From the NCBI RefSeq assembly GCF_030697375.1, contig NZ_JAUYQD010000002.1:21524-85523 (forward strand): 64,000 bases of DNA, given 5' to 3'. Origin of the DNA: Rhodoferax sp. GTDB taxonomy: Bacteria; Pseudomonadota; Gammaproteobacteria; Burkholderiales; Burkholderiaceae_C. A model generated the notes under the pieces. That model did not search any database. It saw only the letters and a program-made list of their open reading frames with translations, and was not told the origin of the DNA. Both the position numbers and the translations under genes were made by a program. Below are positions 1-63,760 of this stretch, piece by piece (positions within the stretch are counted from its first letter, which is position 1; each line of letters begins with the position of its first letter).

Positions 1-851
1 AACATGAAGATTTGTTTGGCCGCCGTGGCGATCAGCTTGGCCACCAGAATTTCTTCCATGCCTGCGCGCGTGAACACCTGCAGGTGTTTCCAGCGGCGCA
101 GGGGCTCCGCCACTGCTTCGGGGTCCCATCCAGGTGCCAGCTGCACCAGGATGGCGTTGACGTTGTGGCTGCTGGTTTGCGACGCTTGCACCGCATCCAA
201 CAGGCCCGGCACGCCGGGGCGGTTGAACGCCGGGTTGGCCGCCGTACGCACGCGGTCGTTCACGATGGCGTCGTTGTCCTTCAAAAACTGGGCCTCTTGC
301 GCATCCTTGAGCGGAACAAACACCATGGGGTCGCCGCCCGAAGAGACCATGCGCTGGGTCAGCCCGACGACGGTGTAGTCGTGGCGGCGGATGCGGATGT
401 GCTCCCCCAGCGAGAAGCCGGTCTTGACATCCGCCACCGCCTCGTAGTGGCTGCGCGTGAGCTGCCGTCCGGCCAGCAGGTAACTGGGTTCACCGGGCAA
501 GCCGCTCTCTATGCCGACAACCATCACGCGGGTGTCGGTGCCGCTGGCAGCGCGCACCTGCATGGTGAAGTAGGTGACGTTGGCCGCTTGCGCGATGCCG
601 GGCATACCGCGCACGCTGCGCACCACATCGTCTTTCAGGCTGGAGGACTCGGCATAGGGCCCTTGGGTGTCTTTTTGCACCACCCACAAATCGGCGCGGC
701 TGTTGTTGAGCAGCGCATGGGCATCGTCCACCATGCCACGGTACACCCCCGCCATCGTCAGCGTCACGCCAATCAGCAGACCCAGGCCCAGGCCGGTCAG
801 CACAAACTTGCCCCAGCTGTGGGCAATGTCACGCCCCGCAAGGCTGATCAT
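1..851 (-). CDS. ABC transporter permease, FtsX/MacB-like (partial)
   Basis: This gene is absent from the ORF track because it runs off the left edge; about 283 residues of the N-terminal part are present. Reading the minus strand from the ATG at 851 gives MISLAGRDIAHSWGKF, then one hydrophobic segment (about residues 15-35, FVLTGLGLGLLIGVTLTMAG) and a long extracytoplasmic region like the MacB periplasmic core (ADLWVVQKDTQG, YLLAGRQLTRSHYE). That is the usual N-terminal half of FtsX-type permeases, whose other transmembrane helices would lie beyond the window. The start overlaps the adaptor stop by four bases (ATGA), so the two are translationally coupled. Adaptor plus FtsX permease implies a MacAB/DevBC-type exporter; the ATPase is probably the next gene outside the window. 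The exported substrate is unknown. Confidence 0.85.
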   Translation of the reverse strand, partial: MISLAGRDIAHSWGKFVLTGLGLGLLIGVTLTMAGVYRGMVDDAHALLNNSRADLWVVQKDTQGPYAESSSLKDDVVRSVRGMPGIAQAANVTYFTMQVRAASGTDTRVMVVGIESGLPGEPSYLLAGRQLTRSHYEAVADVKTGFSLGEHIRIRRHDYTVVGLTQRMVSSGGDPMVFVPLKDAQEAQFLKDNDAIVNDRVRTAANPAFNRPGVPGLLDAVQASQTSSHNVNAILVQLAPGWDPEAVAEPLRRWKHLQVFTRAGMEEILVAKLIATAAKQIFM

Positions 852-4857: not shown

Positions 4858-7800
4858 TCACCCTAACTGCCCCCAAGCCTTCTCCAGCCGTTTCACACTC
4901 ACCGGCTGCGGCGTGCGCAGTTCCTGCGCGAAAAAGCTCACGCGCAGCTCTTCCAGCAGCCAGCGAAACTCCACCATGCGGTCGTCGCTCACGCCCTTGC
5001 GTTCGGCCACCAGCCGCCAGTAGCGTTGCTCCAGGGGACGCAATTCCGCCAGGCGGGTGGTGTCGCGGGCCGGGTCGGCGCGGTATTTCTCCAGCCGGGC
5101 GGTGATGGCTTTTTGGTAGCGGGCGTAGTGCTGCAGGGCGGTCCAGGGGGTTTGCAGCAGAAAGCGCTTGGGCATCAGGCGCGCCAGTTGCTGGGCGGCG
5201 TCCGCCGTGGCCTCGGGCGCGTTTTTGGTGTCCTTGATCTTTCGGGCGGCGATGGCGTACTCCAACAGGATGGTGGCGGCCAGGCGCGCCACCTCCGTGG
5301 CGATCAGGGTCAGGCGGCCCCGGCCTTCCTCCACCCGGCGTTTGAAGGCGAATTCGTCGGTGGGCAGCGGGTCCAGCAAAAAGGCCCGGTCCAGCGCCAC
5401 GGCGATGATCTGCTCGCGCAGCTCTTCGAGGGTGCCGCCGCCCGTGCCGCTGTCCGACCGGCCCACCTGCATGAAGGTGACGGCCATCTTCTGCAGGTCG
5501 GGAATATTTTTTTCCAGGTACTTGAGCGCGTCCTTGAGCTGCAGCGCAAACAGGCGGCGCAGGCCGGCGCGGTGTTTGGCCGCCGCCATTTCAGGTTCGT
5601 CAAACACCTCCACGGTGACCGCATCGCTCGCGTCGATGAGGGCGGGGAAACCGATGAGGGTTTGGCCGCCCTTGCGGATTTCCAGCAGCTCGGGCAGCTC
5701 GCCAAAGGTCCAGGCGGTGTGGCGCTGGTCCTGCAGTGCCGGCTTGGCCTTGCCCGCAGGCGCCGCGTTGGCGCCTGACGCTCCTGATTTCATAGCTGCC
5801 TGCGCAGATTCCACGCGGGCTGGAGCCCTATTTTGTGCAGAATTTCCATCCGCACGGCCTGCTGGACCCGCACTTGCTCCGTTTTTGATAGCTGCTTGCG
5901 CACTGTCCACGGTGGCTAGAGCACTATTGGACTCCTTATTTTGGTTGACCTGCCCCAGTTTCAGGTTAGCCAACGCCTGGAAGGCACCGCGCGCCTGTTT
6001 GCCCCACTCGGCTTTGAGCGCACTTAAGCTTCGCCCCTGCCCCAGTTGGCGGCCATGTTCGTCCACCACGCGGAAGTTCATGAAAAAGTGCGGCGTGAGC
6101 ATGTCGACCTTGATGTCGGCCCGGGCAATGTCCAGTGCGGTGGCGTCGCGCACCATCTTCAACACGGCATCGACCAAGCCGCCGCTGCCAAACTTCTCGG
6201 GCGCGTTCAGCGCTTCGGCAAACTTGGTGGCCGTGTCGGGCAGCGGCACCAGGCGGCTGCGCGGGCGCTGGTGCAAAGTCTTGAGCAAGGCCTGGACCTT
6301 CTCTTTGAGCATGCCCGGCACCAGCCACTCGCAGCGCTCCTCGTTCACCTGGTTCAGCACAAACAGCGGCACGGTCACGGTCAGGCCGTCGCGCGCGTCG
6401 CCGGGCTCGTGCAAATAGGTGGCGGCGCAGTCCACTCCGCCCAATCGAATCGTTTTGGGGAAGGACGCGGTGGTGATGCCGGCCGCCTCGTGGCGCATCA
6501 GTTCTTCGCGGGTCAGGCGCAAAAGCGTGCTTTCGCGGTGCCCGCCCGGAGTGACATGCTCAGGGAGGTGGGGTGGCAGAGCGTTCTGCGTAGGTAAAGG
6601 AGGAGCCCGCAAAGCGGGCGGGGGACACGGAGCAGAACGCTCTGCCGCCCCGCCTCCCGGGTTGTACTGCGGCTTTTTGGATTCCTCGCGATACCAGCGC
6701 TCGAAGCTGTAGCCGCTGCACACGTCGGCGGGCAACTGCTGGTCGTAAAAGGCGTAGATGAGCTCGTCGTCCACCAGCACGTCTTGCCGGCGCGCCTTGT
6801 GCTCCAGGTCTTCCACCTGTTTGATGAGTTTCTGGTTGGCGGCCAGGAAGGGCAGCGCGGTTTCCCACTCCTTGCCCACCAATGCTTCGCGGATGAAGAT
6901 TTCGCGCGCACCCACCATGTCCACGCGGCCGTAGTTGACCCGGCGCCCGCTGTAAACCACGATGCCGTACAGCGTGGCCCGCTCCAGCGCCACCACCTCG
7001 GCCGCCTTCTTTTCCCAATGCGGGTCCAGCAGTTGTTTCTTCAGCAAATGGCCGCCCACCTGCTCCAGCCACTGCGGCTCGATGGCGGCAATGCCGCGGC
7101 CAAACAGGCGCGTGGTCTCCACCAGCTCGGCCGCCACAATCCACTTTCCCGGTTTTTTAACCAGGTGCGCGCCGGGGTGGGCGAAGAACTTGATGCTGCG
7201 CGCCCCCAGGTATTCGCCGTTTTGCCCCTCTTCCAGCTTGCAGCCGATGTTGCCCAGCAAGCCCGCCAGCATGGACAGGTGCAGCTGTTCATACGAGGCC
7301 GGAGCCGCGTTCAGCAACCATTTGTGCTCGGCCACCACCGTATGCAGCTGCGAATGGATGTCCTTCCACTCGCGCACGCGGCGCATGTTGACGAAGTTTT
7401 GGCGCAGCAGCTGTTCGTACTGGCGGTTGGATAACTTGTGCGTTGTAGTTTGCGCCGGGAGTTGAGGCGGCTGGGCGCTCTGCTCCGTGTCCCCCGGCCT
7501 TCGGCCTCCTCCTTTTACCTGCGCAGAACGCCCAGTCACCCCAACTCCCTGAGTCGAGTAAGGCTCACCACCCCGCGCATCGTGAATCCACTTCCACAAC
7601 TTCAGGTAGCCGCTGAACTCACTCTTCTCATCGTCAAACTTGGCATGCGCCTGGTCGGCCTGCTGCTGCATGTCCATGGGCCGGTCCCGCACATCCTGCA
7701 CGCTGAGCGCCGAGGCGATCACCAGCACCTCGTCCAGCGCCTGGCGACTGCGGGCTTCCAGAATCATGCGGCCCACACGCGGGTCCAGCGGCAGCTTGGC

Positions 7801-9147
7801 CAGCTCCTGGCCCATGGGCGTCAGTTCGTTGGCATCGTCCACCGCGCCCAGCTCATTGAGCAACTGGTAACCATCGGCAATGGCGCGTCCCGAGGGGCGC
7901 TCGATGAACGGAAAATCTTCCACGATGCCAAGGTGCAACGACTTCATCCGCAAAATCACGCCGGCCAGGGACGAGCGCAGAATTTCGGGGTCGGTAAAAC
8001 GCGGGCGGCCGTCAAAGTCGGCCTTGTCGTACAGGCGGATGCAAATGCCGTTGGCCACGCGCCCGCAGCGCCCGGCGCGCTGGTTGGCCGAGCTTTGGCT
8101 GATGGGCTCCACCAGCAACTGCTCCACCTTGCTACGGAAACTGTAGCGCTTCACGCGCGCCGTGCCTGCGTCAATGACGTAGCGGGTGCCCGGCACCGTG
8201 AGCGAGGTTTCCGCCACGTTGGTGGCCAGCACCACGCGCCGCCCGGTGTGGCCGTCAAAAATGCGGTCCTGCTCGGCCGGGCTCAGGCGGGCAAACAGGG
8301 GCAGCACTTCGGCATTGCGAAACAGGGGCTGGTGGCTCAGGTGCTTGCGCAAATGGTCGGCCGCCTCGCGGATTTCGCGCTCGCCGGGCAAAAAAATCAG
8401 GATGTCGCCGCCGTTGTGCGGGTCGCGCCAGAGCTCGTCCACCCCATCGGCGATGGCCGAGTTCAGGTCGTATTCGCGCGACTCTTCAAATGGCCGGTAG
8501 CGCTGCTCCACCGGAAACATGCGCCCGGAGACCATGATGACGGGGGCTGGCCCCTTGGCGGACGCAAAGTGGTCGGCAAAACGCTGCGCGTCAATCGTGG
8601 CCGAGGTGACGATGATTTTCAGGTCCGGGCGGCGCGGCAAAATCTGGCGCAGGTAACCCAGCAAAAAATCGATGTTCAGCGAACGCTCGTGCGCCTCGTC
8701 GATGATGATGGTGTCGTAGGCTTTGAGTAGCGGGTCGGTCTGCGTCTCGGCCAGCAAAATACCGTCGGTCATGAGCTTGACCGAGGCGTCACGGCTCAGC
8801 CGGTCCTGAAAACGCACCTTGAAGCCCACCACATCGCCCAGCGGCGTTTTCAGTTCCTCGGCAATGCGTTTGGCCACGGAAGACGCCGCAATCCGGCGCG
8901 GCTGGGTGTGGCCAATGAGCTTGCCGCGCGGCGCGGGCCGGCCATCGGGCAAAGTCTTGGGGTAGTTGCACAGCCCGCGCCCCATGGCCAGGGCGATCTT
9001 GGGCAACTGCGTGGTTTTGCCGGAACCTGTCTCACCACACACGATGACCACTTGGTGCGCGCTGATGGCGGCCATGATCTCTTCGCGTTTGGCGGAAACT
9101 GGCAGGGACTCGGGGAAATCAATTGTCAATCGTTGCATGATGCGCAT
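4858..9147 (-). CDS. hrpA: ATP-dependent RNA helicase HrpA
   Basis: A 1429-residue DEAH-box helicase, longer than the roughly 1300 residues usual for HrpA. Motifs: Walker A GETGSGKTTQLPK (about residue 38), TQPRRIAA, DEAH, SATI, the helicase-C motif QRAGRCGR, then HA2, OB and the long C-terminal DUF3418-type region ending in EKAWGQLG. It unwinds RNA and has been linked to mRNA processing and to stalled-ribosome handling. The excess length is partly due to four in-frame repeat insertions: two 93-96-bp palindromic elements (proline/glycine-rich inserts) and two copies of the SAQAAIK-encoding repeat. The gene is intact despite these. Its 3' end is duplicated at 2767-2921, and mobile defence genes lie on both sides. 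ATG at 9147 is used; the ATG at 9138 is equally possible. Confidence 0.95.
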   Translation of the reverse strand: MRIMQRLTIDFPESLPVSAKREEIMAAISAHQVVIVCGETGSGKTTQLPKIALAMGRGLCNYPKTLPDGRPAPRGKLIGHTQPRRIAASSVAKRIAEELKTPLGDVVGFKVRFQDRLSRDASVKLMTDGILLAETQTDPLLKAYDTIIIDEAHERSLNIDFLLGYLRQILPRRPDLKIIVTSATIDAQRFADHFASAKGPAPVIMVSGRMFPVEQRYRPFEESREYDLNSAIADGVDELWRDPHNGGDILIFLPGEREIREAADHLRKHLSHQPLFRNAEVLPLFARLSPAEQDRIFDGHTGRRVVLATNVAETSLTVPGTRYVIDAGTARVKRYSFRSKVEQLLVEPISQSSANQRAGRCGRVANGICIRLYDKADFDGRPRFTDPEILRSSLAGVILRMKSLHLGIVEDFPFIERPSGRAIADGYQLLNELGAVDDANELTPMGQELAKLPLDPRVGRMILEARSRQALDEVLVIASALSVQDVRDRPMDMQQQADQAHAKFDDEKSEFSGYLKLWKWIHDARGGEPYSTQGVGVTGRSAQVKGGGRRPGDTEQSAQPPQLPAQTTTHKLSNRQYEQLLRQNFVNMRRVREWKDIHSQLHTVVAEHKWLLNAAPASYEQLHLSMLAGLLGNIGCKLEEGQNGEYLGARSIKFFAHPGAHLVKKPGKWIVAAELVETTRLFGRGIAAIEPQWLEQVGGHLLKKQLLDPHWEKKAAEVVALERATLYGIVVYSGRRVNYGRVDMVGAREIFIREALVGKEWETALPFLAANQKLIKQVEDLEHKARRQDVLVDDELIYAFYDQQLPADVCSGYSFERWYREESKKPQYNPGGGAAERSAPCPPPALRAPPLPTQNALPPHLPEHVTPGGHRESTLLRLTREELMRHEAAGITTASFPKTIRLGGVDCAATYLHEPGDARDGLTVTVPLFVLNQVNEERCEWLVPGMLKEKVQALLKTLHQRPRSRLVPLPDTATKFAEALNAPEKFGSGGLVDAVLKMVRDATALDIARADIKVDMLTPHFFMNFRVVDEHGRQLGQGRSLSALKAEWGKQARGAFQALANLKLGQVNQNKESNSALATVDSAQAAIKNGASAGPAGRADGNSAQNRAPARVESAQAAMKSGASGANAAPAGKAKPALQDQRHTAWTFGELPELLEIRKGGQTLIGFPALIDASDAVTVEVFDEPEMAAAKHRAGLRRLFALQLKDALKYLEKNIPDLQKMAVTFMQVGRSDSGTGGGTLEELREQIIAVALDRAFLLDPLPTDEFAFKRRVEEGRGRLTLIATEVARLAATILLEYAIAARKIKDTKNAPEATADAAQQLARLMPKRFLLQTPWTALQHYARYQKAITARLEKYRADPARDTTRLAELRPLEQRYWRLVAERKGVSDDRMVEFRWLLEELRVSFFAQELRTPQPVSVKRLEKAWGQLG
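4865..5012 (-). repeat. Direct repeat: hrpA 3' end, intact copy
   Basis: These 148 bases align without gaps to 2774-2921 with 7 mismatches. The two copies are in the same orientation and flank the ATPase/TOPRIM-like genes. This copy is part of the functional hrpA. Confidence 0.9.
5787..5835 (+). repeat. Family-1 dispersed repeat inside hrpA (copy 1)
   Basis: Contains CATAGCTGCCTGCGCAGATT, a variant of the ATAGCTGCTTGCGC core, followed by the GGGCTGGAGC part. On the hrpA coding strand it encodes RVESAQAAMKSGAS. It adds an Ala-rich linker to a non-conserved part of HrpA. Confidence 0.75.
5881..5930 (+). repeat. Family-1 dispersed repeat inside hrpA (copy 2)
   Basis: Reads GATAGCTGCTTGCGCACTGT followed by GGTGGCTAGAGC. 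On the hrpA strand it encodes TVDSAQAAIKNGAS, nearly the same peptide as the neighbouring copy about 90 bases away. The two copies and the intervening sequence form a tandem low-complexity insert in HrpA. Confidence 0.8.
6563..6658 (-). repeat. Family-2 palindromic element inside hrpA (copy 1)
   Basis: 96 bp with 27-bp terminal inverted arms, 6563-6589 and 6632-6658. The inner 15 bases, GGCAGAGCGTTCTGC and its complement, are perfect and the outer 12 differ at two positions. The loop contains a second hairpin, GCCCGC-aaa-GCGGGC. It is a multiple of three, keeps the hrpA frame open and encodes an Ala/Pro-rich insert (AAERSAPCPPPALRAPP). The same unit occurs in opposite orientation at 7457-7549. 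Confidence 0.85.
7457..7549 (+). repeat. Family-2 palindromic element inside hrpA (copy 2)
   Basis: 93 bp with 27-bp arms, 7457-7483 and 7523-7549, starting GGGAGTTGAGGCGG, with four arm mismatches. The core CTCTGCTCCGTGTCCCCCG, an inner hairpin GGCC-ttc-GGCC, then CCTCCTTTTACCT-CGCAGAACG match copy 1 read in reverse. In this orientation the hrpA frame reads VTGRSAQVKGGGRRPGDTEQ, an unrelated peptide, again without a stop. Confidence 0.85.
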
Positions 9148-19866: not shown

Positions 19867-22800
19867 ATGCCAAACACCACCACCCCACTGGACTCCAAGC
19901 TCTGGCAATTCTGGATTGACCGCGGCGGCACTTTCACCGACGTGGTGGGCAAGCGCCCTGACGGCAGCTTGGTCACCCACAAGCTGCTGAGCGAAAACCC
20001 CGAGCAGTACAAGGACGCCGCTGTGGCTGGCATCCGCCACTTGCTGGGGCTCAAAAAGGGCGAGCCCGTCACCCCCGACCGGGTGGCCTGCGTCAAGATG
20101 GGCACCACCGTGGCCACCAACGCGCTGCTGGAACGCAAGGGCGAGCCCACCCTGCTGGTGACCACACGCGGCTTTCGCGATGCGCTGCGCATTGCCTACC
20201 AAAACCGCCCCCGCATTTTCGACCGCAACATCCAGTTGCCCGAGCTGCTGTACAGCGCCGTGGTGGAGGCCCGTGAACGCGTCGGCGCCCACGGCGACCT
20301 GATCGAGCCGCTGAACGAGTTGCTATTAAAAGAGGAGCTGCTTACGCAATATACACGGGGGCTGCGCAGTGTTTCCATTGTATTTATGCACGGCTACCGC
20401 TACACCGCGCATGAACTGGCGGCCAAACGCATTGCGCAGGAAGTGGGCTTCACGCAGATCAGCACCTCGCACGAAACCAGCCCCATGATGAAGTTCGTCA
20501 GCCGGGGCGACACCACGGTGGTGGACGCCTACCTCTCGCCCATTTTGCGCCGCTACGTGGAGCAGGTGGCGGGCGAGATGCCCGGCGTGAAGCTGTTTTT
20601 CATGCAGTCCTCGGGCGGGCTGACGGATGCCCATGTGTTCCAGGGCAAGGACGCGATTTTGAGCGGCCCGGCCGGCGGCATCGTGGGCATGGCCCGCACC
20701 GCCGCCATCGCGGGCATCGAGAAGATCATTGGCTTTGACATGGGCGGCACATCCACCGACGTGTCGCACTACGCAGGCGAGTTCGAGCGCGAGTTCGAGA
20801 CCCAGGTGGCCGGGGTGCGCATGCGCGCGCCCATGATGAGCATCCACACCGTGGCGGCTGGCGGCGGCTCGCTGCTGGCCTTTGACGGTGCGCGGTTTCG
20901 CGTGGGGCCGCAAAGCGCGGGCGCCAACCCCGGCCCGGCCAGTTACCGCCGGGGCGGCGCACTGGCGGTGACCGATGCCAATGTGATGATGGGCAAGATC
21001 CAGCCGCGCTACTTCCCCAAGGTGTTTGGCCCCCATGCCGACGAGGCGCTGAGCCTGGAAGCCGTGCAGGCGAAGTTTGACGAGCTGGCCGCACAAACCC
21101 AGCGCCCGCCCGAAGAGGTGGCCGAGGGCTTCATCAACATCGCCGTGCAGCAGATGGCCAACGCCATCAAGAAAATTTCAGTCGCCCGCGGCTACGACGT
21201 CACCGGCTACACCCTGCAATGCTTCGGCGGCGCCGGTGGGCAGCACGCCTGCCTGGTGGCCGACGCCCTGGGCATGACGCGTGTGTTTGTGCACCCCCTG
21301 GCCGGCGTGCTCAGCGCCTACGGCATGGGCCTGGCCGACCAGACCGTGATCCGCGAGCAGGCGGTGGAAGTGAAGCTCAGCCCCGAAGCCCTGACCGACG
21401 TGGTGGCCCGGCTGGACGCCCTGGCCGCGCAGGCCGAGGGCGAACTGACACGCCAGCAGGTCAACCAGGGCACCCTCAGCACCCACCGCCGTGTGCATGT
21501 GCGCTACGAAGGCAGCGACGCGGCCCTGGTGGTGGCCTACCCCACGGGCACCGCCACCCCCACCGCCACCACGGCGCTGATCGTGGCCGGTTTTGAGGCC
21601 GCCTACCGCCAGCGCTTTGCCTTCCTCATGCAAGGCAAGGGGCTGATTGTGGAGGCCGTGTCGGTGGAGGCCGTGATTGCCGGCGACGCCCCGGAAGAAC
21701 CCCGCCACGCCCTGCACGCGCCGCGCGACCTGCAGGCCTGCGGCGCCGTGCGTGAACGGGTGCGCATGTACTCGGGCGGCCAGTGGGTGCAAGCGGCCCT
21801 GGTGGTGCGCGAGGACCTGCGTCCCGGCGACACCATTCCCGGCCCGGCCATCATTGCCGAGAAGAATGCGACCACCGTGGTGGAGCCCGGCTGGGCTGCC
21901 ACTTTGACAGAGTTTGACCACCTGGCCCTCGTCCGCACTGAAAAGCGTGCTGTCAAATTTGCAGTGGGCACCACGGTGGACCCGGTGCTGCTGGAGGTGT
22001 TCAACAACCTCTTCATGAACATCGCCGAGCAAATGGGCCTGCAACTGCAAAACACCGCCTACTCGGTGAACATCAAGGAGCGTCTGGACTTCAGCTGCGC
22101 GCTGTTTGATGCGGCCGGCAACCTGATCGCCAATGCGCCCCACATGCCGGTGCATTTGGGCAGCATGGGCGAGAGCATCAAGACCGTGGTGCGCGAGAAC
22201 GCGGCCACCATGCAGCCGGGTGACGTGTATGTGCTCAACGACCCCTACCATGGCGGAACGCACCTGCCGGATATCACGGTCATCACGCCGGTGTATCTGG
22301 ACGGGAAACCGACGTTTTATGTTGGGTCGCGCGGCCACCATGCGGACGTGGGCGGCACCACGCCGGGCTCCATGCCGCCCTTCTCCACGCGCATCGAGGA
22401 AGAAGGCGTGCAGATCAACAACTTCAAGCTGGTGGACCGCGGCGTGCTGCGCGAGGCGGAGATGGTGGCACTGCTCAGCAGTGGCGAATACCCGTCGCGC
22501 AACACGCAGCAAAACATGGCCGACCTCAACGCCCAGATTGCCGCCAACGAAAAAGGCGTGCAAGAGCTGCGCAAGATGGTGGAACACTTCGGCCTGGACG
22601 TGGTGCAGGCCTATATGGGCCATGTGCAAGCCAACGCCGAAGAGTCGGTGCGCCGCGTGATCACCCGCCTCAAAGATGGTGCCTTCACCCTACCGCTGGA
22701 CAACGGCGCGCAGATCCAGGTGGCGATCCGTGTCAACGCACTTGAGCGCAGCGCGGTGATCGACTTCACCGGCACCTCAGAGCAGCAGGTCAACAACTTC

Positions 22801-23526
22801 AACGCCCCCATGGCGGTGTGTATGGCGGCGGTGCTGTATGTGTTTCGCACCCTGGTGGACGACGACATTCCGCTCAACGCGGGCTGCCTCAAACCGCTGC
22901 AGGTCATCATTCCGCAGGGCTCCATGCTCAACCCCAATCCACCGGCCTCGGTGGTGGCGGGCAATGTGGAAACCTCCACCTGCATCACCAACGCCCTGTA
23001 CGGCGCCCTGGGCGTGATGGCGGGCAGCCAGTGCACCATGAACAACTTCACCTTCGGCAATGCGCGCTACCAGTACTACGAGACCATTTCGGGCGGCTCC
23101 GGCGCGGGAGTGGTGACGAATGCGGCGGGCGAGACGGTGGGCGGCTTCCACGGCACCAGCGTCGTGCAAACCCACATGACCAACTCGCGCCTGACCGACC
23201 CCGAGATTTTCGAATTCCGCTTCCCGGTGCGCCTGGAAAGTTACGAAATCCGCGAGGGCTCGGGCGGCGCCGGCCAATGGCACGGTGGCAACGGCGGCGT
23301 GCGCCGGGTGCGTTTCCTGGAGAACATGACGGCCAGCATTTTGTCCAACGGCCGCACCCATGGTGCCTTCGGCATGGCCGGTGGCCAACCGGGCCAGGTC
23401 GGCGTAAACCGTGTGTTGCGTGCCAATGGCGAGGTGGAGCAACTAGGTCACATCGGGCAGGCGGAAATGCACCCCGGCGACATCTTCGAAATTTCGACGC
23501 CAGGGGGTGGTGGATACGGTGCGTAG
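19867..23526 (+). CDS. 5-oxoprolinase / hydantoinase, fused HyuA-HyuB
   Basis: 1219 residues, the length of the full 5-oxoprolinase (OplAH-type) fusion. The N-terminal HyuA part (1 to about 690) has an actin-like ATPase fold: FWIDRGGTFTDVVGKRPDG, KMGTTVATNALLERKGEP, IGFDMGGTSTDVSHY, and the Gly-rich CFGGAGGQHACLVADALG. The C-terminal HyuB part (about 700-1219) starts PVLLEVFNNLFMNIAEQMG and contains HMPVHLGSMGESIKTV, NDPYHGGTHLPDITV, VGSRGHHADVGG and the terminal GGGGYG. These enzymes use ATP to open 5-oxoproline or hydantoin-type rings. The DUF1445 neighbour favours 5-oxoproline. A degenerate copy of the family-1 repeat appears to lie near residue 155. Confidence 0.93.
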   Translation: MPNTTTPLDSKLWQFWIDRGGTFTDVVGKRPDGSLVTHKLLSENPEQYKDAAVAGIRHLLGLKKGEPVTPDRVACVKMGTTVATNALLERKGEPTLLVTTRGFRDALRIAYQNRPRIFDRNIQLPELLYSAVVEARERVGAHGDLIEPLNELLLKEELLTQYTRGLRSVSIVFMHGYRYTAHELAAKRIAQEVGFTQISTSHETSPMMKFVSRGDTTVVDAYLSPILRRYVEQVAGEMPGVKLFFMQSSGGLTDAHVFQGKDAILSGPAGGIVGMARTAAIAGIEKIIGFDMGGTSTDVSHYAGEFEREFETQVAGVRMRAPMMSIHTVAAGGGSLLAFDGARFRVGPQSAGANPGPASYRRGGALAVTDANVMMGKIQPRYFPKVFGPHADEALSLEAVQAKFDELAAQTQRPPEEVAEGFINIAVQQMANAIKKISVARGYDVTGYTLQCFGGAGGQHACLVADALGMTRVFVHPLAGVLSAYGMGLADQTVIREQAVEVKLSPEALTDVVARLDALAAQAEGELTRQQVNQGTLSTHRRVHVRYEGSDAALVVAYPTGTATPTATTALIVAGFEAAYRQRFAFLMQGKGLIVEAVSVEAVIAGDAPEEPRHALHAPRDLQACGAVRERVRMYSGGQWVQAALVVREDLRPGDTIPGPAIIAEKNATTVVEPGWAATLTEFDHLALVRTEKRAVKFAVGTTVDPVLLEVFNNLFMNIAEQMGLQLQNTAYSVNIKERLDFSCALFDAAGNLIANAPHMPVHLGSMGESIKTVVRENAATMQPGDVYVLNDPYHGGTHLPDITVITPVYLDGKPTFYVGSRGHHADVGGTTPGSMPPFSTRIEEEGVQINNFKLVDRGVLREAEMVALLSSGEYPSRNTQQNMADLNAQIAANEKGVQELRKMVEHFGLDVVQAYMGHVQANAEESVRRVITRLKDGAFTLPLDNGAQIQVAIRVNALERSAVIDFTGTSEQQVNNFNAPMAVCMAAVLYVFRTLVDDDIPLNAGCLKPLQVIIPQGSMLNPNPPASVVAGNVETSTCITNALYGALGVMAGSQCTMNNFTFGNARYQYYETISGGSGAGVVTNAAGETVGGFHGTSVVQTHMTNSRLTDPEIFEFRFPVRLESYEIREGSGGAGQWHGGNGGVRRVRFLENMTASILSNGRTHGAFGMAGGQPGQVGVNRVLRANGEVEQLGHIGQAEMHPGDIFEISTPGGGGYGA
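20319..20372 (+). repeat. Degenerate family-1 repeat inside the oxoprolinase gene
   Basis: GTTGCTATTAAAAGAGGAGC, TGCTTACGCAAT, then ACACGGGGGCTGCG follows the order of the family-1 consensus (GCTATTAA..AGCTGCTTGCGCA..ACGGGGGCTAGAG) with several changes. It encodes LLLKEELLTQYTRGLR. It may be an old insertion; chance similarity cannot be excluded. Confidence 0.5.
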
Positions 23527-34308: not shown

Positions 34309-35406
34309 TCAGCCCAAATCCCGCAAGGGATGCGCCCAGGCCGGCCAGGGGGATTCAAAGAAAGGTGCCACCTGTTCGGGCGTAACGTCTTCAATCCGTG
34401 CAGGACTCCACTGCGGACTGTGGTCCTTGTCCACCGCCAGGGCACGGATGCCTTCCACCGTTTCCGAGCTGGCCCCGCTGCGCCCCAGGTGCTGGGTATT
34501 GAAACAGTGGCGAACGATATCGCGCTCCATACGCAGATCCTCGGCCAGAGTCATGCCACGCGCACGGCGCACCTGTTCCAGCACCACATGCAGCATCAAG
34601 GGCGAACGTTTGCGCAAGGTGGCGGCGGTGTGTTGTGCCCATGCACTGTCGTCCGCCTCCAAGGCATGCACGATCTCCGGCATCGATTGCATCGAAAAAA
34701 ATGGGTCAATAAGGGCTCTAGCCCCCGTGGAATGTGCGTGAGCAGCTACTGAATAGATAGCAAGCCATTGGCCGATTGCATCTGGCAGATCCAGATTGGT
34801 GTTGGCCAATGCGTCCCAGGCCTCTTCAAGGCGCATTTCGTCCAGACAGGCGTCCGCCAAACCCATCTCCATCGCGGTGGCGGCGTCCATCACCTCACCC
34901 GTCAGCGCCTGCCACTCGCCCGTGCGCCCCGGACAACGGCTCAAAAAGTACCCTCCGCCTACGTCCGGAAACAGGCCGATATGCGTCTCTGGCATGGCCA
35001 TCTTGGTTCGTCCCGTCACCAAACGGTGCGAGCCCCCCTGGCTGATCCCCATGCCCCCGCCCATGACCACGCCATCCATGAAGGCGATGTAGGGTTTGGA
35101 AAAGTTGTGAATCAGGCAGTTAAGTGCATATTCCTCGGTGAAAAAATCCTCCAGCTGGGGATTTCCAGCCAAGGCAGCCTGGTGGAAGAAGCGGATGTCA
35201 CCGCCGGCGCAGAAGCTGCCAAACGGCCCGGTCTTGCCCATACCCCGTATCGCCACCGCCTTGACGGCGCTTTCCTGCTGCCATTGCAGCAGCACGGTGG
35301 TCAGGCTGCGCACCATCTCCAGATTCAGGGAATTCAGGGCTTTGGCGCGGTTCAGGGTGATACAGCCCAAGCGCCCGCGCACTTCCGTCAAAACCAAATC
35401 GCTCAT
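34309..35406 (-). CDS. Enoyl-CoA hydratase/isomerase family protein (3-hydroxyisobutyryl-CoA hydrolase-like)
   Basis: 365 residues from the ATG at 35406; the track adds five codons from a GTG. The crotonase fold is clear: LGCITLNRAKALNSLNLEMVRSL, FGSFCAGGDIRFFHQAAL (oxyanion hole), VMGGGMGISQGGSHRLVTGRTKMAMPETHIGLFPDVGGGYFLSRC. The length, the ETHIGLFPDVGG segment and the C-terminal part fit 3-hydroxyisobutyryl-CoA hydrolases of valine breakdown better than 260-residue hydratases. A family-1 repeat is inserted in frame (LAIYSVAAHAHSTGARALID). It overlaps the end of the DMT transporter gene by four bases. Confidence 0.85.
   Translation of the reverse strand: MSDLVLTEVRGRLGCITLNRAKALNSLNLEMVRSLTTVLLQWQQESAVKAVAIRGMGKTGPFGSFCAGGDIRFFHQAALAGNPQLEDFFTEEYALNCLIHNFSKPYIAFMDGVVMGGGMGISQGGSHRLVTGRTKMAMPETHIGLFPDVGGGYFLSRCPGRTGEWQALTGEVMDAATAMEMGLADACLDEMRLEEAWDALANTNLDLPDAIGQWLAIYSVAAHAHSTGARALIDPFFSMQSMPEIVHALEADDSAWAQHTAATLRKRSPLMLHVVLEQVRRARGMTLAEDLRMERDIVRHCFNTQHLGRSGASSETVEGIRALAVDKDHSPQWSPARIEDVTPEQVAPFFESPWPAWAHPLRDLG
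34707..34772 (-). repeat. Family-1 dispersed repeat inside the enoyl-CoA hydratase gene
   Basis: On the minus strand it reads TTGCTATCTATTCAGTAGCTGCTCACGCACATTCCACGGGGGCTAGAG, which follows the full consensus closely. The frame used differs from that in hrpA and truB, so the encoded peptide is different (SVAAHAHSTGARA). Confidence 0.75.
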
Positions 35407-36275
35407 AACCGTTGTCTCCACCCAATCACTTCATTCACCACCAATGCACCAATCACCAAGGTGCCGCCGGTTAAAACTGCACGGGACGGCTCTTCCCCCG
35501 CACCGACCCAGGCCAACAAGATACCGAAGATGACCTCCAGCAACTGCAGCAGCGATATTTCAGGTGCCTTCAAAACACGGGCACACCACACCGACAGCAC
35601 GCAGGGCAAGGCCAATTGTCCTACGCCCAACAGGCCCAGCAATGTCACATCATGGACACTGGCCTGAAAAGGATAGGCCAACGGAAAGGTCAACACCGTT
35701 GAGATCACCGCGCCCACCAGCACAGCGGGGACCAAATCAACGTTTTGGCCCTGGGCGTGGGAATGTTGGGTGGCAGTCCAGTTGGTGGCACCGGCGATGG
35801 GTACACACAGGGCCACCAAGGTGCCCCACAGCGAGCCTTGGGACAGTTGGGCTGCGTACATGTACACAATACCCACGCCCGCGGCCACAATCGCCACCCA
35901 GGTTCGCAGGGGTACACGGTGGCCAATAAAAACCCGTGCGATCAGGGCGGTGAGCAAAGGCCCGATGGACATGGTGACCAGCACATTGCCCACCGTGGTG
36001 AGGGTGAGGGCCACCATGAAGGCGGTGAACATCACACTCCAGCACAGACCCGACACCCAAAACAGGCCACTGGCGCGGCGTATCTTGCCAAAGATCTCTC
36101 GCCCCTGGAACAGCGGCAAGATCAACAACAGGCTCAACGCCGTGAACAAGGCCCGCCAAAACGTGACCTCAAAACTCCGGGCAAATTCCAGATGGCGTGT
36201 GACCACACCGGCGGTGGACCACATCAGGGCCACCGCCACCATCAGGAACACCGCCCGATTGTGGGTCAACCGCAA
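35403..36275 (-). CDS. DMT-superfamily (EamA) transporter
   Basis: 290 residues and ten hydrophobic segments in two EamA repeats. The first begins AVFLMVAVALMWSTAGVVTRHL, with FWRALFTALSLLLILPLF; VTMSIGPLLTALIARVFIGHRVPLRTWVAIVAAGVGIVYMY closes it. The second repeat ends VIFGILLAWVGAGEEPSRAVLTGGTLVIGALVVNEV. These proteins export amino acids or other metabolites; the substrate is not predictable. It follows typA by eight bases and overlaps the next gene (ATGA). Confidence 0.9.
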   Translation of the reverse strand: MRLTHNRAVFLMVAVALMWSTAGVVTRHLEFARSFEVTFWRALFTALSLLLILPLFQGREIFGKIRRASGLFWVSGLCWSVMFTAFMVALTLTTVGNVLVTMSIGPLLTALIARVFIGHRVPLRTWVAIVAAGVGIVYMYAAQLSQGSLWGTLVALCVPIAGATNWTATQHSHAQGQNVDLVPAVLVGAVISTVLTFPLAYPFQASVHDVTLLGLLGVGQLALPCVLSVWCARVLKAPEISLLQLLEVIFGILLAWVGAGEEPSRAVLTGGTLVIGALVVNEVIGWRQRL

Positions 36276-38123: not shown

Positions 38124-39080
38124 TTAAATCTGCTCAGATTTTTTCAGTATTTGCTCTATCTCCAGCGGGCTCAATAGCCGCCCTGGTATCAATTCACCCG
38201 CTTTCACCTGGGCCGTACCCAGCAAGGCGTGTGGGTTTTCACCGTACACGGCGACTCGCGACTCGTCAGGCCATGCCCCCCGGCGGCGTACACCGCTCAA
38301 GAAGCGCCCTGCACTCTCCCCCTCCAGCGCAACAACCGTGTGGTCGCGCAACAGCGACTCCACCGGCATCAGGCAAGCCAACCGTTGTTCCTCGGTCATA
38401 GCTTCCAGCGCCTCCAGCGTGACGCATTGAGAAACCGAAAAGCCCCCGGTTTCAATCCGCCGCAATGCGGTCAAATGCGCGCCACACCCCAAGGCCTCAC
38501 CTATATCTTCCCCAAGGGTTCGAATGTAAGTTCCCTTGCTGCATTTCACTACCATTTTGATAGCTGCTTGCGCACTGTCCATAGGGGCCAGAGTCGCTTT
38601 TAATGCATGAATTGTGACCTCACGGGCCACCCGTTCCACTTCAATCCCGGCACGGGCATATTCGTACAGGGCCTTTCCATCCTTCTTCAACGCGCTGTGC
38701 ATGGGGGGCACCTGATGGATGACTCCCGTAAAACGCGACAGGACACCTTGCAAGTCAACGTCAGTGACCTGAACGGGGCGCTCTTCAATCACCTCACCTT
38801 CGGCATCTGCCGTGCTGGTCTTGACACCCAAACACGCCACCGCTTCATACGTTTTGTCGGCATCCAACTGCAATTGGCTGAACTTCGTGGCCGCCCCAAA
38901 ACACAGTGGCAACACGCCGGTTGCCAGTGGATCCAAGGTACCGGTGTGCCCCGCTTTTTCAGCGCGCAGCAGCCATTTTACTTTTTGCAATGCATCGTTG
39001 CTGGACCAGCCCAATGGCTTGTCCAGCAACAGCACCCCATGCACGGGGCGCCTTGCAACCCGTGCACGTGGCGCATTCAT
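38124..39080 (-). CDS. truB: tRNA pseudouridine-55 synthase
   Basis: 318 residues from the ATG at 39080; the track starts 14 codons earlier, inside rbfA. It begins RRPVHGVLLLDKPLGWSSNDALQKVKWLL and contains the catalytic-Asp motif GHTGTLDPLATGVLPLCFG, then YEAVACLG, the KCSKGTYIRTLGEDIGEALG segment, and a PUA-like C-terminal region. It makes pseudouridine 55 in the T loop of tRNA. A family-1 repeat is inserted in frame just before KCSKGTYIRTL, adding LAPMDSAQAAIK between two conserved strands, apparently tolerated. Confidence 0.95.
   Translation of the reverse strand: MNAPRARVARRPVHGVLLLDKPLGWSSNDALQKVKWLLRAEKAGHTGTLDPLATGVLPLCFGAATKFSQLQLDADKTYEAVACLGVKTSTADAEGEVIEERPVQVTDVDLQGVLSRFTGVIHQVPPMHSALKKDGKALYEYARAGIEVERVAREVTIHALKATLAPMDSAQAAIKMVVKCSKGTYIRTLGEDIGEALGCGAHLTALRRIETGGFSVSQCVTLEALEAMTEEQRLACLMPVESLLRDHTVVALEGESAGRFLSGVRRRGAWPDESRVAVYGENPHALLGTAQVKAGELIPGRLLSPLEIEQILKKSEQI
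38554..38604 (+). repeat. Family-1 dispersed repeat inside truB
   Basis: TTTTGATAGCTGCTTGCGCA followed by CTGTCCATAGGGGCCAGAG. On the truB strand it encodes LAPMDSAQAAIK, nearly the peptide seen in HrpA (TVDSAQAAIK) and the yejF-like ATPase (APAECAQAAIK). Confidence 0.85.
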
Positions 39081-39084
39081 GGGG

Positions 39085-39453
39085 TCAGTCTTCCTTGGCC
39101 CGAGAAGAAACCGCACGCGCAATCAAGGCGTTCATGTCAGCGGCCTTCTCAGTGGTGCGATCAAACAGGAAGTGCAAGGTAGGCACCGTATGGATATGCA
39201 GCCGTTTGAACAAACCCGCACGTAAAAAACCCGCCGCCTGGTTCAGGCCTTCGGTACACGCTACGGGGTCACCCACGAGCAGACTGAAGAATACCTTGGC
39301 GTGGGCATAGTCAGGGGTGACCTCCACCGCCTGGATTGTCACCATCCCCACGCGCGGGTCTTTCAACTCGCGCGCAATCAGCTCGGTCAGATCCCGCTGG
39401 ATCTGATCGGCCACTTTGAAGCTACGGTTAGGGGTACTGGACTTTTTACGCAC
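39085..39453 (-). CDS. rbfA: 30S ribosome-binding factor RbfA
   Basis: 122 residues with the family pattern [50 protein letters not shown] near the start and [35 protein letters not shown] in the second half: a KH-type fold that binds 16S rRNA during late 30S maturation. It lies between infB and truB with gaps of under 20 bases. Confidence 0.95.
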
Positions 39454-44774: not shown

Positions 44775-46367
44775 TTATTCCGCCGCCGCGAGCAGGATCT
44801 GGGTGTATTCGTGCTGTGGCTGGCCAAAGACTTGCGCCACAGAACCGCGCTCCATGATTTTCCCGCCCTGCATCACCAGAACCTGATGGGCCATGGCACG
44901 AACGACCGCCACATCGTGGGTGATCAGAAGATAAGCCAAACCCCGTTCACGCTGCAAGCCCTGCAGCAGTTGCAAGATCTGCTGCGCCATCGTGACATCC
45001 AGCGCACTGGTGGGCTCATCCAGCACCAGCAGCCGCGGCTGCACGATGAGTGCCCGGGCAATAGCAATGCGTTGGCGCTGGCCGCCGGAAAACTGGTGTG
45101 GATAACGCTCCAGCAAGCCGGGAAACTGCCCCTCGTCCAAACCCACTTCGCCCAAGGTATTTCTCACCCGCTGGCAGCGCTGGGCGGCAGACAGCTCCGG
45201 TTCGTGCACCAGCAGTCCCTCGCCCACAATTTCTTCCACCGTCATGCGTGGCGACAGCGACGAAAAGGGGTCCTGAAACACCACTTGCACGTCTTTGCGC
45301 AAGGCGCGGTCCGCATGGACACCCGCCCCCCAACTTTGCCCGAACAAAGACATGGCACCCTTGAACTTCAGCAGACCCAGAGCCGCCAAAGCCAAGGTGG
45401 ATTTGCCCGAGCCCGACTCCCCCACTACCCCCAGGGTCTGACCAGACGGCAACTCCAGGTCCAGCTGCGACACCGCCACAAATTCACCATGGGAAAACCA
45501 GCCGCGCAAACCCGGCAGGGGCACCGGATAAGCCACCCGTATGCCGCGCGCGACCAAGGCCGGTTCGGCTGTTGCGGGGCTTTCGAGCACATTGCGCACA
45601 GGCTTGCTGCCCATCAACCGGCGGGTGTAAGCGTGTTGCGGCGCAGCAAACAGGTCCGCCACCGCACCTTGCTCAACGATGCGCCCGCTTTCCATCACGG
45701 CCACACGGTCGGCAAACTGGCGCACCAGGTTCAGGTCATGGGTGATCAGCAACACGGCCATGCCGTATTTTTTTTGCAAATCGGTGAGCAAGTCCAAAAT
45801 CTGCTTGCGCACCGTCACATCCAAGGCGGTAGTTGGTTCGTCGGCCAACAACAGTTGGGGGCGACATGCCAGGGCCATGGCGATCATGGCCCGCTGGCGC
45901 TGGCCGCCGGACAGCTGGTGGGGGTAGGCTTTGGCCCGGCGTGCCGGATCTTCAATTCCCGTATCCGCTATTAATTTAATAGCTGCTTGCGCACATTCTG
46001 CGGGGGCCAGGCCCATTTTTAGCTGTAGAACTTCGGCAATCTGCTCTCCGATGGTGAACACCGGGTTCAGTGCCGTCATGGGCTCCTGGAAAATCATGGC
46101 GATGTCTTGCCCCCGAATGGCTTGCAGCTGGCGCGAAGGCAGATGCAGCAAATCGACTTTGCGCTCCCCCGGTGCGAACCACGCATGGCCCTGCACCTGC
46201 GCGCCTTGGACCAACCCCAGCAGACTCAAGGCCGTTACCGTCTTCCCGGAACCCGACTCCCCCACCAGTGCCAGCTTTTCACCCGCTTTGATCTCAAAGT
46301 CAACCCCATGGACCACCGTACGCCCACCGAAGGACAACTCCAGCCCCTGAACCCGTAACAAACTCAT
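44775..46367 (-). CDS. yejF: Peptide ABC transporter ATP-binding protein with two nucleotide-binding domains (YejF-like)
   Basis: 530 residues with two complete ABC domains. Domain 1: Walker A GESGSGKTVTALS, signature LSGGQRQRAMIAMALACRPQLLLADEPTTALD. Domain 2: GESGSGKSTLALAALG, FSGGQRQRIAIARALIVQPRLLVLDEPTSALD. Fused duplicated ATPases are typical of YejF in the YejABEF peptide importer, and the gene order supports this. A family-1 repeat lies in frame in the helical part of domain 1, giving GLAPAECAQAAIKLIADTG. The start overlaps the preceding permease gene by four bases (ATGA). Confidence 0.92.
   Translation of the reverse strand: MSLLRVQGLELSFGGRTVVHGVDFEIKAGEKLALVGESGSGKTVTALSLLGLVQGAQVQGHAWFAPGERKVDLLHLPSRQLQAIRGQDIAMIFQEPMTALNPVFTIGEQIAEVLQLKMGLAPAECAQAAIKLIADTGIEDPARRAKAYPHQLSGGQRQRAMIAMALACRPQLLLADEPTTALDVTVRKQILDLLTDLQKKYGMAVLLITHDLNLVRQFADRVAVMESGRIVEQGAVADLFAAPQHAYTRRLMGSKPVRNVLESPATAEPALVARGIRVAYPVPLPGLRGWFSHGEFVAVSQLDLELPSGQTLGVVGESGSGKSTLALAALGLLKFKGAMSLFGQSWGAGVHADRALRKDVQVVFQDPFSSLSPRMTVEEIVGEGLLVHEPELSAAQRCQRVRNTLGEVGLDEGQFPGLLERYPHQFSGGQRQRIAIARALIVQPRLLVLDEPTSALDVTMAQQILQLLQGLQRERGLAYLLITHDVAVVRAMAHQVLVMQGGKIMERGSVAQVFGQPQHEYTQILLAAAE
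45969..46021 (+). repeat. Family-1 dispersed repeat inside the yejF-like gene
   Basis: GCTATTAATTTAATAGCTGC, TTGCGCACATTCTGCGGGGGCCAG is close to the consensus and shows the inverted pair TATTAA-TTTAATA at its left end. On the yejF strand it encodes APAECAQAAIK. Confidence 0.85.
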
Positions 46368-51233: not shown

Positions 51234-51242
51234 AGTTGTAAG

Positions 51243-51300
51243 TAAAAATAGCTGCTAGCCCCCGTAGAACGGGCGCAAGCAGCTATTAAATCAATAGCAA
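51243..51300 (-). repeat. Family-1 dispersed repeat, intergenic, with full hairpin
   Basis: AATAGCTGCT...AGCAGCTATT are 10-bp perfect arms enclosing CCCGT-aga-ACGGG. Read on the minus strand it is TTGCTATTGATTTAATAGCTGCTTGCGCCCGTTCTACGGGGGCTAG, close to the family consensus. It lies between the convergent fabI and decarboxylase genes, where it could act as a bidirectional terminator-like structure. Confidence 0.85.
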
Positions 51301-51304
51301 TTGC

Positions 51305-62555: not shown

Positions 62556-63710
62556 ATGAACCCCACTCCCCCTCTGACAAGCCGCCTACCCGCTGTCGGC
62601 ACCACGGTCTTTTCCGTCATGTCGGCCTTGGCCACACAACACCAGGCCGTCAATCTGGGCCAGGGCTTTCCGGACTTTGCCTGCGACCCCGCCCTGGTCA
62701 ACCATGTGACGCAGGCCATGCAGGCCGGGCACAACCAGTACCCGCCCATGCCCGGTATTCCTGCGCTGCGCGAAGCTATCGCTACAAAAATAGAAGCGCT
62801 TCACGCCCGCCACTACAGGGCTACCGACGAAATCACCATCACAGCCGGGGCAACCCAGGCCATCATCACGGCTATTTTGGCGGTGGTGCATCCCGGGGAT
62901 GAAGTGATCGTGCTGGAGCCCTGCTACGACAGCTATGTGCCCAATATCGAGCTGGCGGGCGGCGTAGTGGTGCGCGTGCCCCTTACACCCGGCACCTTCC
63001 GCCCGGACTTTGGCAAAATCGCCGCGGCCATCACCCCCAGAACCCGCGCCATCCTGATCAACTCGCCACACAACCCCAGCGCCACCGTGTGGTCGCGCGC
63101 GGACATGCTGGCACTGCAAGACCTGCTGGCCCCAACCGACATCCTGCTCATCAGTGACGAAGTGTATGAACACATGGTATTTGATGGCGCCCAGCACGAA
63201 AGCGCGGCCCGTTTTCCTGGCCTGGCCGCGCGGGCCTTCATCGTCTCCAGTTTTGGAAAAACCTACCATGTAACCGGCTGGAAGGTGGGCTACGTGGCGG
63301 CACCGGCTGCGATGACCGCTGAATTTCGCAAGGTCCACCAGTTCAATGTGTTCAGCGTCAACACCCCGGTGCAATACGGTTTGGCGAATTACATGGCCGA
63401 CCCCAGGCCCTACCTGGATTTGCCAGCGTTTTACCAGCGCAAGCGCGACCTGTTCCGCGAAGGGCTCAAGCAAACCAGGTTCAAACTGTTGCCCAGCGAA
63501 GGCAGCTACTTTCAATGCGTGGACATTTCGGAGGTGAGTGACCTCGGTGAAGCAGAGTTTTGCCAATGGTTGACCGCCGAGGTAGGTGTAGCAGCCATTC
63601 CCCTGTCCGCTTTTTATGGCAACCGCTTCGACCAGCATGTGGTGCGGTTTTGCTTTGCTAAACAGGATGCAACACTCCATGCCGCACTCCATAAATTGCT
63701 ATCTATTTGA
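62556..63710 (+). CDS. PLP-dependent aminotransferase (YbdL/methionine aminotransferase-like)
   Basis: 384 residues, fold type I aminotransferase. VNLGQGFPDFACDPALVNHVTQAMQAGHNQYPPMPGIPALREAIA is the N-terminal region typical of YbdL/kynurenine aminotransferases. GATQAIITAILAVVHPGDEVIVLEPCYDSY, NSPHNPSATVW, SDEVYEHMVFDG and the lysine in SSFGKTYHVTGWKVGYVAAP follow. E. coli YbdL prefers methionine; the position after cysB fits sulfur amino-acid metabolism. A degenerate repeat may lie near residue 75. Confidence 0.92.
   Translation: MNPTPPLTSRLPAVGTTVFSVMSALATQHQAVNLGQGFPDFACDPALVNHVTQAMQAGHNQYPPMPGIPALREAIATKIEALHARHYRATDEITITAGATQAIITAILAVVHPGDEVIVLEPCYDSYVPNIELAGGVVVRVPLTPGTFRPDFGKIAAAITPRTRAILINSPHNPSATVWSRADMLALQDLLAPTDILLISDEVYEHMVFDGAQHESAARFPGLAARAFIVSSFGKTYHVTGWKVGYVAAPAAMTAEFRKVHQFNVFSVNTPVQYGLANYMADPRPYLDLPAFYQRKRDLFREGLKQTRFKLLPSEGSYFQCVDISEVSDLGEAEFCQWLTAEVGVAAIPLSAFYGNRFDQHVVRFCFAKQDATLHAALHKLLSI
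62774..62825 (+). repeat. Possible degenerate family-1 repeat inside the aminotransferase gene
   Basis: AGCTATCGCTACAAAAATAG, AAGCGCTTCACGC, then ACTACAGGGCTACCG follows the order of the consensus but with many differences. It encodes AIATKIEALHARHYRATDE, which also fits a normal aminotransferase sequence. Weakest member of the set. Confidence 0.3.
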
Positions 63711-63760
63711 TAGCTTCTTGCGCAGTATCTCAGGGCAATCGCACCTAAATTGATAGCAAA
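63695..63760 (+). repeat. Family-1 dispersed repeat, intergenic, next to the IS element
   Basis: TTGCTATCTATTTGATAGCT then TCTTGCGCAGTATCTCAGGGC matches the consensus up to the GGGC part. It starts just inside the aminotransferase stop region and runs toward the transposase gene, after which the similarity ends. The insertion-sequence end may lie within it. Confidence 0.65.

Follow-up and report, generated by a model that had tools for sequence, protein, structure and literature searches.

Known sequence signals and dispersed repeats

DNA uptake sequences, DUS in Neisseriaceae and USS in Pasteurellaceae, show a core-genome bias, species dialects, intragenic copies and, in Haemophilus, rigid, slightly bent AT-tracts (PMC3630211, PMC7811141). 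They measure 9-12 bp, or about 30 bp with the USS flanks, are dispersed in both orientations at about one copy per kb, and have a demonstrated role in uptake. Uptake sequences originate in a length-neutral manner. To our knowledge, no uptake sequence has been described in Burkholderiales. A species that we take to belong to the same family as the organism studied here is Verminephrobacter eiseniae. For this species, natural transformation with a possible sequence preference has been reported (PMC4212676).

The repeat described here was found in a 64-kb window (the whole stretch of DNA that was analysed) and throughout the genome. Like DUS and USS, it is dispersed in both orientations with intragenic copies, a core-genome bias and species dialects, and its copies inside genes sit in place without changing their length. 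Two of its AT-tracts lie about one turn apart, as do the rigid, slightly bent ones of USS (PMC3630211, PMC7811141). In contrast to DUS and USS, the element is two-part and about 63 bp long, is roughly tenfold rarer (about 0.13 copies/kb) and is known from sequence alone, and the distribution of comEC does not match its own. We know of no uptake sequence that comes near to a length of 63 bp or is as rare as about 0.13 copies/kb.

REP and BIME elements are also short repeats with hundreds of mostly intergenic copies; a survey of REP elements does not mention Comamonadaceae genera (PMC3733652). Rickettsia palindromic elements (RPEs) resemble our element in that repeat DNA occurs, with a favoured frame, in many unrelated protein genes. 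RPEs are insertions. The element, unlike RPEs, adds no length and has no conserved palindrome or stem.

The element in the window and in the genome

The consensus, about 63 bp long, consists of a W-tract, GCTAnnnnWWTTnATAGCTGCTTGCGCA, a short variable stretch, ACGGGGGCTAGAGGCC and WWTT. Copy statistics are based on 99 genome copies, almost all of which match the core perfectly; when aligned, they define an element that extends from roughly -17 to +44 relative to the core and reads cTTTTGCTATTAATTTgATAGCTGCTTGCGCAnnnTCTACGGGGGCTAGAGGCCnATTTGgC. A profile built from these copies detects eight elements in the window (Table 1) and none in the reversed sequence. Even the weak copy in the ORF at 19867-23526, with only 28.2 bits, scores higher than all reversed-sequence matches.

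Table 1. Copies of the 63-bp element detected by the profile in the 64-kb window.
Location	Host gene or ORF (strand)	Element	Strand	Score (bits)	Reading or remark
hrpA, copy 1	4858-9147 (-)	5774..5836	+	66.4	ARVESAQAAMK
hrpA, copy 2	4858-9147 (-)	5870..5932	+	69.1	ATVDSAQAAIK
inside ORF	19867-23526 (+)	20316..20378	+	28.2	weak, diverged
enoyl-CoA hydratase family gene	34309-35421 (-)	34705..34767	-	51.7	SVAAHAHSTGARALID; other orientation
truB	38124-39122 (-)	38542..38604	+	65.9	LAPMDSAQAAIKMVVK
yejF-like ABC ATPase gene	44775-46367 (-)	45961..46023	+	69.4	LAPAECAQAAIKLIA
intergenic, between convergent SDR and Orn/Lys/Arg decarboxylase genes		51242..51304	-	77.4	
over start of ORF and adjoining region	62586-63692 (-)	63692..63754	+	46.4	

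The initial annotation had noticed a nearly identical peptide in three unrelated proteins and attributed it to a DNA repeat. All of these peptides are present: two in HrpA, LAPMDSAQAAIK in TruB, directly ahead of KCSKGTYIRTL, and LAPAECAQAAIK in the YejF-like ATPase. The DNA that they share consists of four in-register copies at 5781, 5877, 38549 and 45968. There is indeed a repeat in truB, but the limits given for it, 38554-38604, are too narrow for an element that begins at about 38542. The enoyl-CoA hydratase gene, which has a Pfam ECH_2 match, holds another coding copy that had been missed.

Genome-wide (5.78 Mb, 115 contigs), the 14-nt core ATAGCTGCTTGCGC has 269 matches with at most one mismatch (145 + 124), as compared to three for the reversed pattern. 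Relatives of its TruB assign the genome to Rhodoferax. According to an automatic gene model, 71 of the 99 copies are intergenic, 25 lie within genes and 3 extend across gene ends, while genes account for 87% of the window sequence. The same repeat thus occurs in unrelated genes, with 23 coding copies in different genes having been read individually. The hosts are, as we presume, mostly core genes: truB, yejF-like, hrpA, lolD, lpxB, dsbB and ksgA, and also dapE, an argF-like gene, maf, putA and the enoyl-CoA hydratase gene. Outside the window, these names were assigned by sequence recognition; Pfam was applied to the window genes.

The SAQAAIK frame, read from the strand opposite the motif, is used by 16 of the 23 coding copies, the LIAACA frame by four and the ASSYE frame by three. 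In intergenic copies, these frames are open in 57, 71 and 51% of cases, respectively. The SAQAAIK frame is therefore favoured beyond its openness (16 of 23 versus 27% expected, p = 3e-5). The proposal that a DNA repeat places a near-identical peptide in unrelated proteins thus holds genome-wide, with a preferred frame; a uniform frame and orientation, as had been assumed, applies to these 16 copies, while overall three frames and both orientations are in use. The peptide is not a conserved unit, since the motif yields LIAACA or ASSYE in other genes and 71 of the 99 copies are non-coding. SAQAAIK is real but secondary, a by-product of the DNA motif: it represents the complementary strand of the motif in the frame that is best tolerated by proteins. 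As a whole, the earlier interpretation is partly supported.

Coding copies do not lengthen their host genes

The peptide had been likened to an RPE-type insertion, an in-frame event that adds a short helical peptide. Comparison with element-free orthologs overturns this reading, most of these being equally long. In truB, the stretch measures 63 nt in every genome compared, among them the element-free G017 and G004, in which the site has profile scores of -81 and -64. The same holds for yejF (63 nt, including the element-free G063, G017 and G004), where two fixed motifs are 45 aa apart whether or not the ortholog carries the element. Eight orthologs of the enoyl-CoA hydratase gene can be aligned without any gap inside the element. 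TruB is just 4 aa longer at this site than the E. coli structures, which led us to reject an insertion into a TruB loop.

Seventeen further coding genes were aligned with orthologs from the element-poor genomes G017, G004 and G047, all of which score below -27. No length change is seen against any ortholog for an ABC transporter gene, the gene at -1500 of L025, lolD, an ArnT-like gene, maf, lpxB and dsbB, and none against two of three orthologs for the acyl-CoA synthetase gene, which differs by at most 1 aa, and for the argF-like gene. In the remaining genes the difference is 1-7 aa; it reaches 9-14 aa in dapE and ksgA and 7-23 aa in the hrpA linker. In none of the aligned coding genes did we find the clean and consistent gain of 21 aa that is expected of an insertion. 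Nor are the copies confined to variable loops: in LolD, LpxB and DsbB, the element lies within conserved, ungapped stretches.

RPE-like insertion agrees with the preference for a single frame and with the recurrence of one peptide across unrelated proteins, and it could account for dapE, ksgA and hrpA, where the stretches hosting the copies are 7-23 aa longer than in the orthologs. As most genes gain no length, conserved ungapped stretches are hosts, and both strands and three frames are used, we consider this explanation most improbable. Judging from these alignments, the motif apparently overwrites existing sequence inside core genes and leaves their length unchanged.

Architecture of the element

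The element has three A/T tracts, at positions -16..-13, -5..-2 and 38..41, in which AA and TT occur as alternatives and TpA steps are scarce (p < 0.005 for each tract). The two left tracts are about 11 bp apart, which is about one helical turn. RNAalifold, applied to 68 copies, did not predict a conserved RNA pairing or stem. This architecture looks like that of a protein-DNA recognition motif.

MITEs and enterobacterial RU elements with coding capacity, as described in two reports (PMC2229807, PMC2759123), are likewise small repeats with intergenic and intragenic copies. The element differs from them as so described in that it is not inserted into genes and has no visible terminal inverted repeats or target duplications; neither was seen in aligned copies with 90-nt flanks or in a second alignment, duplications being assessed by eye.

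A search for subfamilies by linkage between columns yielded local linkage only, restricted to neighbouring columns and fading beyond about ten positions, and one minor right-half variant. This variant, ...CCCATATGCCGAAAGGCC... with linked positions, is represented by five or six copies (L052, L054, L058, L060 and L078, around 1501).

Conservation and origin of the copies

The elements are evidently old and constrained, as far as orthologous loci can tell. Among five element-rich species, the element is retained in 139 orthologous comparisons and missing in 4, these being directed comparisons in which a pair may count twice. The four comparisons concern two loci only, L323 12997 and L342 9106, where the element is absent in a close relative. 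Both sites are in poorly aligned intergenic DNA of differing length, so that gain or loss may involve an indel there.

In intergenic ortholog pairs, strong positions show 0.077 differences per site, compared to 0.293 for weak positions and 0.196 for the 60-nt flanks; the values for coding pairs are 0.055, 0.170 and 0.080. As a profile match was needed in both species, these values are biased towards conserved strong positions, although few pairs were lost. As an independent check, how well a column outside the core is conserved among the copies of the present genome (G000) was found to predict how well it is conserved between G007 and G049 (rho -0.58, p = 1e-5, 20 pairs). DNA that is not shared between species has a lower element density (6 versus 69 copies, p = 0.02, the counts being non-independent), a pattern that a core-genome signal acquired slowly would give.

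Individual loci can be followed across species. An element-like sequence is present at the truB site in 36 of 80 loci examined, among them loci of Ramlibacter, Acidovorax and Paenacidovorax; the reversed controls have none. The intergenic copy at 51242..51304 has a counterpart between the same genes in G007, G074, G049, G001, G065 and G041. The place of the first hrpA copy is also occupied in G049 and G001, while the second has no counterpart in either. It is very probable that we are dealing with a constrained, length-neutral DNA motif.

The mode by which copies arose, on which a recognition motif and templated replacement differ, left conflicting traces. In comparison with element-free orthologs, ancestral-like letters outnumber novel ones among the deviations from the consensus (84 versus 32; 34 internal). 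In coding copies, the ancestral letters are interspersed among gained motif letters and many codons have been altered synonymously towards the motif, both of which fit a letter-by-letter approach under protein constraint. Profile scores, by contrast, are nearly discrete, with hardly any sites lying between background and full elements. Element-rich sequence that had been retrieved independently of the core (about 440 kb) contains elements scoring between about 15 and 80 and one site near 0, and reversed controls yield none. No isolated half elements occur in the window. The score gap and the missing halves fit all-at-once copying better than a slow approach.

The repeat might be a selfish one, spread and homogenised by templated replacement that overwrites similar stretches instead of inserting, through ectopic gene conversion or microhomology-based double illegitimate recombination. 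The discrete scores and absent halves speak for this, as do long near-identical blocks in unrelated genes such as lolD and yejF, and homogenisation predicts species-wide dialects. Yet the columns lack the long-range linkage that subfamilies would leave, ancestral letters (84 ancestral-like versus 32 novel) alternate with gained ones, and AA/TT alternatives shared by the A-tracts are unexpected from a decaying master copy. On balance we find templated replacement unlikely. The truB copy was also considered as the origin of the family and rejected: it leaves the consensus at positions dictated by its Lys-Cys codons, and so looks constrained rather than like a founder.

Dialects and species distribution

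Copies in G007 read TGCTCGCGCA...CCATGGGCGCTAG, those in G000 TGCTTGCGCA...TACGGGGGCTAG, and this difference between the G007 group and G000 is also seen at shared loci, for instance truB, yejF and enoyl-CoA hydratase. An Acidovorax truB element (L167, 2461-2523) reads GGTTGCGCTTGACCATCAAGCGCCAGAG; its GCGCTTG/CAAGCGC arms could pair, and it is possibly another dialect.

Searching 61 genomes of the same genus with a model gave a bimodal result, with at least 87 matches in 25 genomes, 12-72 in four and 0-4 in the others. In a yejF tree of 30 species, a single change divides element-rich from element-free species, with weak branch support.

Hundreds of mostly intergenic copies would also fit a REP-like element moved by a RAYT (Y1) transposase, and one of the three Y1 genes of the present genome is flanked by elements (L309 2462-2524 and 3344-3406, on G000:C65). 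However, a Y1 gene occurs about once per genome in element-free species as well and does not tell rich from free genomes apart, which speaks against a RAYT association; the Y1 genes of G007, G001, G049, G074, G041, G063 and G013 have no adjoining elements. Besides lacking a consistent RAYT association, the element differs from REP and BIME elements in that it has no conserved hairpin and is often coding, its coding copies being length-neutral. Mobilization by a RAYT transposase is thus very unlikely.

A candidate DNA recognition signal

The evidence points to an unrecognised genome-wide DNA signal, which many Rhodoferax species retain at hundreds of set positions, and not to a jumping repeat. 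It may well be a DNA recognition motif of about 63 bp that is kept by drive or selection, similar to a DNA uptake sequence, rather than an inserted peptide or a transposing element. A putative DNA-binding machinery would recognise the motif, and biased recombination or selection would draw sequences towards the species' own form of it, in a process akin to the drive-based build-up of DNA uptake sequences in naturally transformable bacteria. The nearly discrete scores and the absence of half elements count against this, as do the dapE, ksgA and hrpA copies in their longer stretches.

As to the specific mechanism, we propose uptake-type drive only tentatively. Length and rarity of the motif weaken it, and so does comEC, which is present in most element-rich genomes but also in free ones and does not separate the two. 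In G041, which is element-rich and 99% complete, the ComEC domains PF03772 and PF13567 both went undetected, which weakens it further.

A site for a nucleoid, segregation or replication protein, selected for chromosome function and not by uptake drive, would behave identically at the sequence level and differ in its reader alone. Purifying constraint on motif positions, the A-tract architecture, all-or-none presence between species and the elements of G041 agree with such a site. Against it, the 86 sites on the G007 chromosome have neither regular spacing (CV 0.94) nor a strong orientation pattern (weak clustering, p = 0.03), and rewriting about 20 residues of core proteins is costly when the site could be intergenic. 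We regard this explanation as rather unlikely. Oriented sites of the Chi or KOPS kind were considered and discarded, as orientations on the G007 chromosome are near-equal and cluster weakly.

For the recognition motif kept by drive or selection, a wider claim can be made with some reserve: it could represent a new class of long (about 63 bp) genome-wide signal in Comamonadaceae, with a putative reader machinery, that rewrites core-protein segments in place and switches dialect at many loci together. If so, many core proteins (TruB, LolD, LpxB, DsbB and others) would have had about 20 residues remodelled by a DNA-level signal without mobile insertion, and part of the variation of these proteins would be unrelated to their function. 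Motif-bearing and motif-free species, and those with differing dialects, would then offer a natural experiment in which the reader protein could be sought, and the motif could be tested directly as a candidate signal for sequence-guided DNA exchange in Burkholderiales. In the literature covered, from which subscription papers were mostly absent, we found neither the core or arm sequences nor a description of Rhodoferax or Comamonadaceae repeats.

Other repeats in the window

An Rfam scan of the window returned one tRNA and nothing else. The 3′ end of hrpA (4862-5012) matches 2771-2921 as a 151-nt direct repeat with 95% identity, so part of hrpA seems to have been duplicated about 2 kb away. 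Inside hrpA, 6563-6660 and 7455-7499 contain a G+C-rich inverted repeat (45 nt, 84% complementary), which also forms a local hairpin with arms of 93%. Together with the 63-bp element, hrpA thus harbours two unrelated repeat families.
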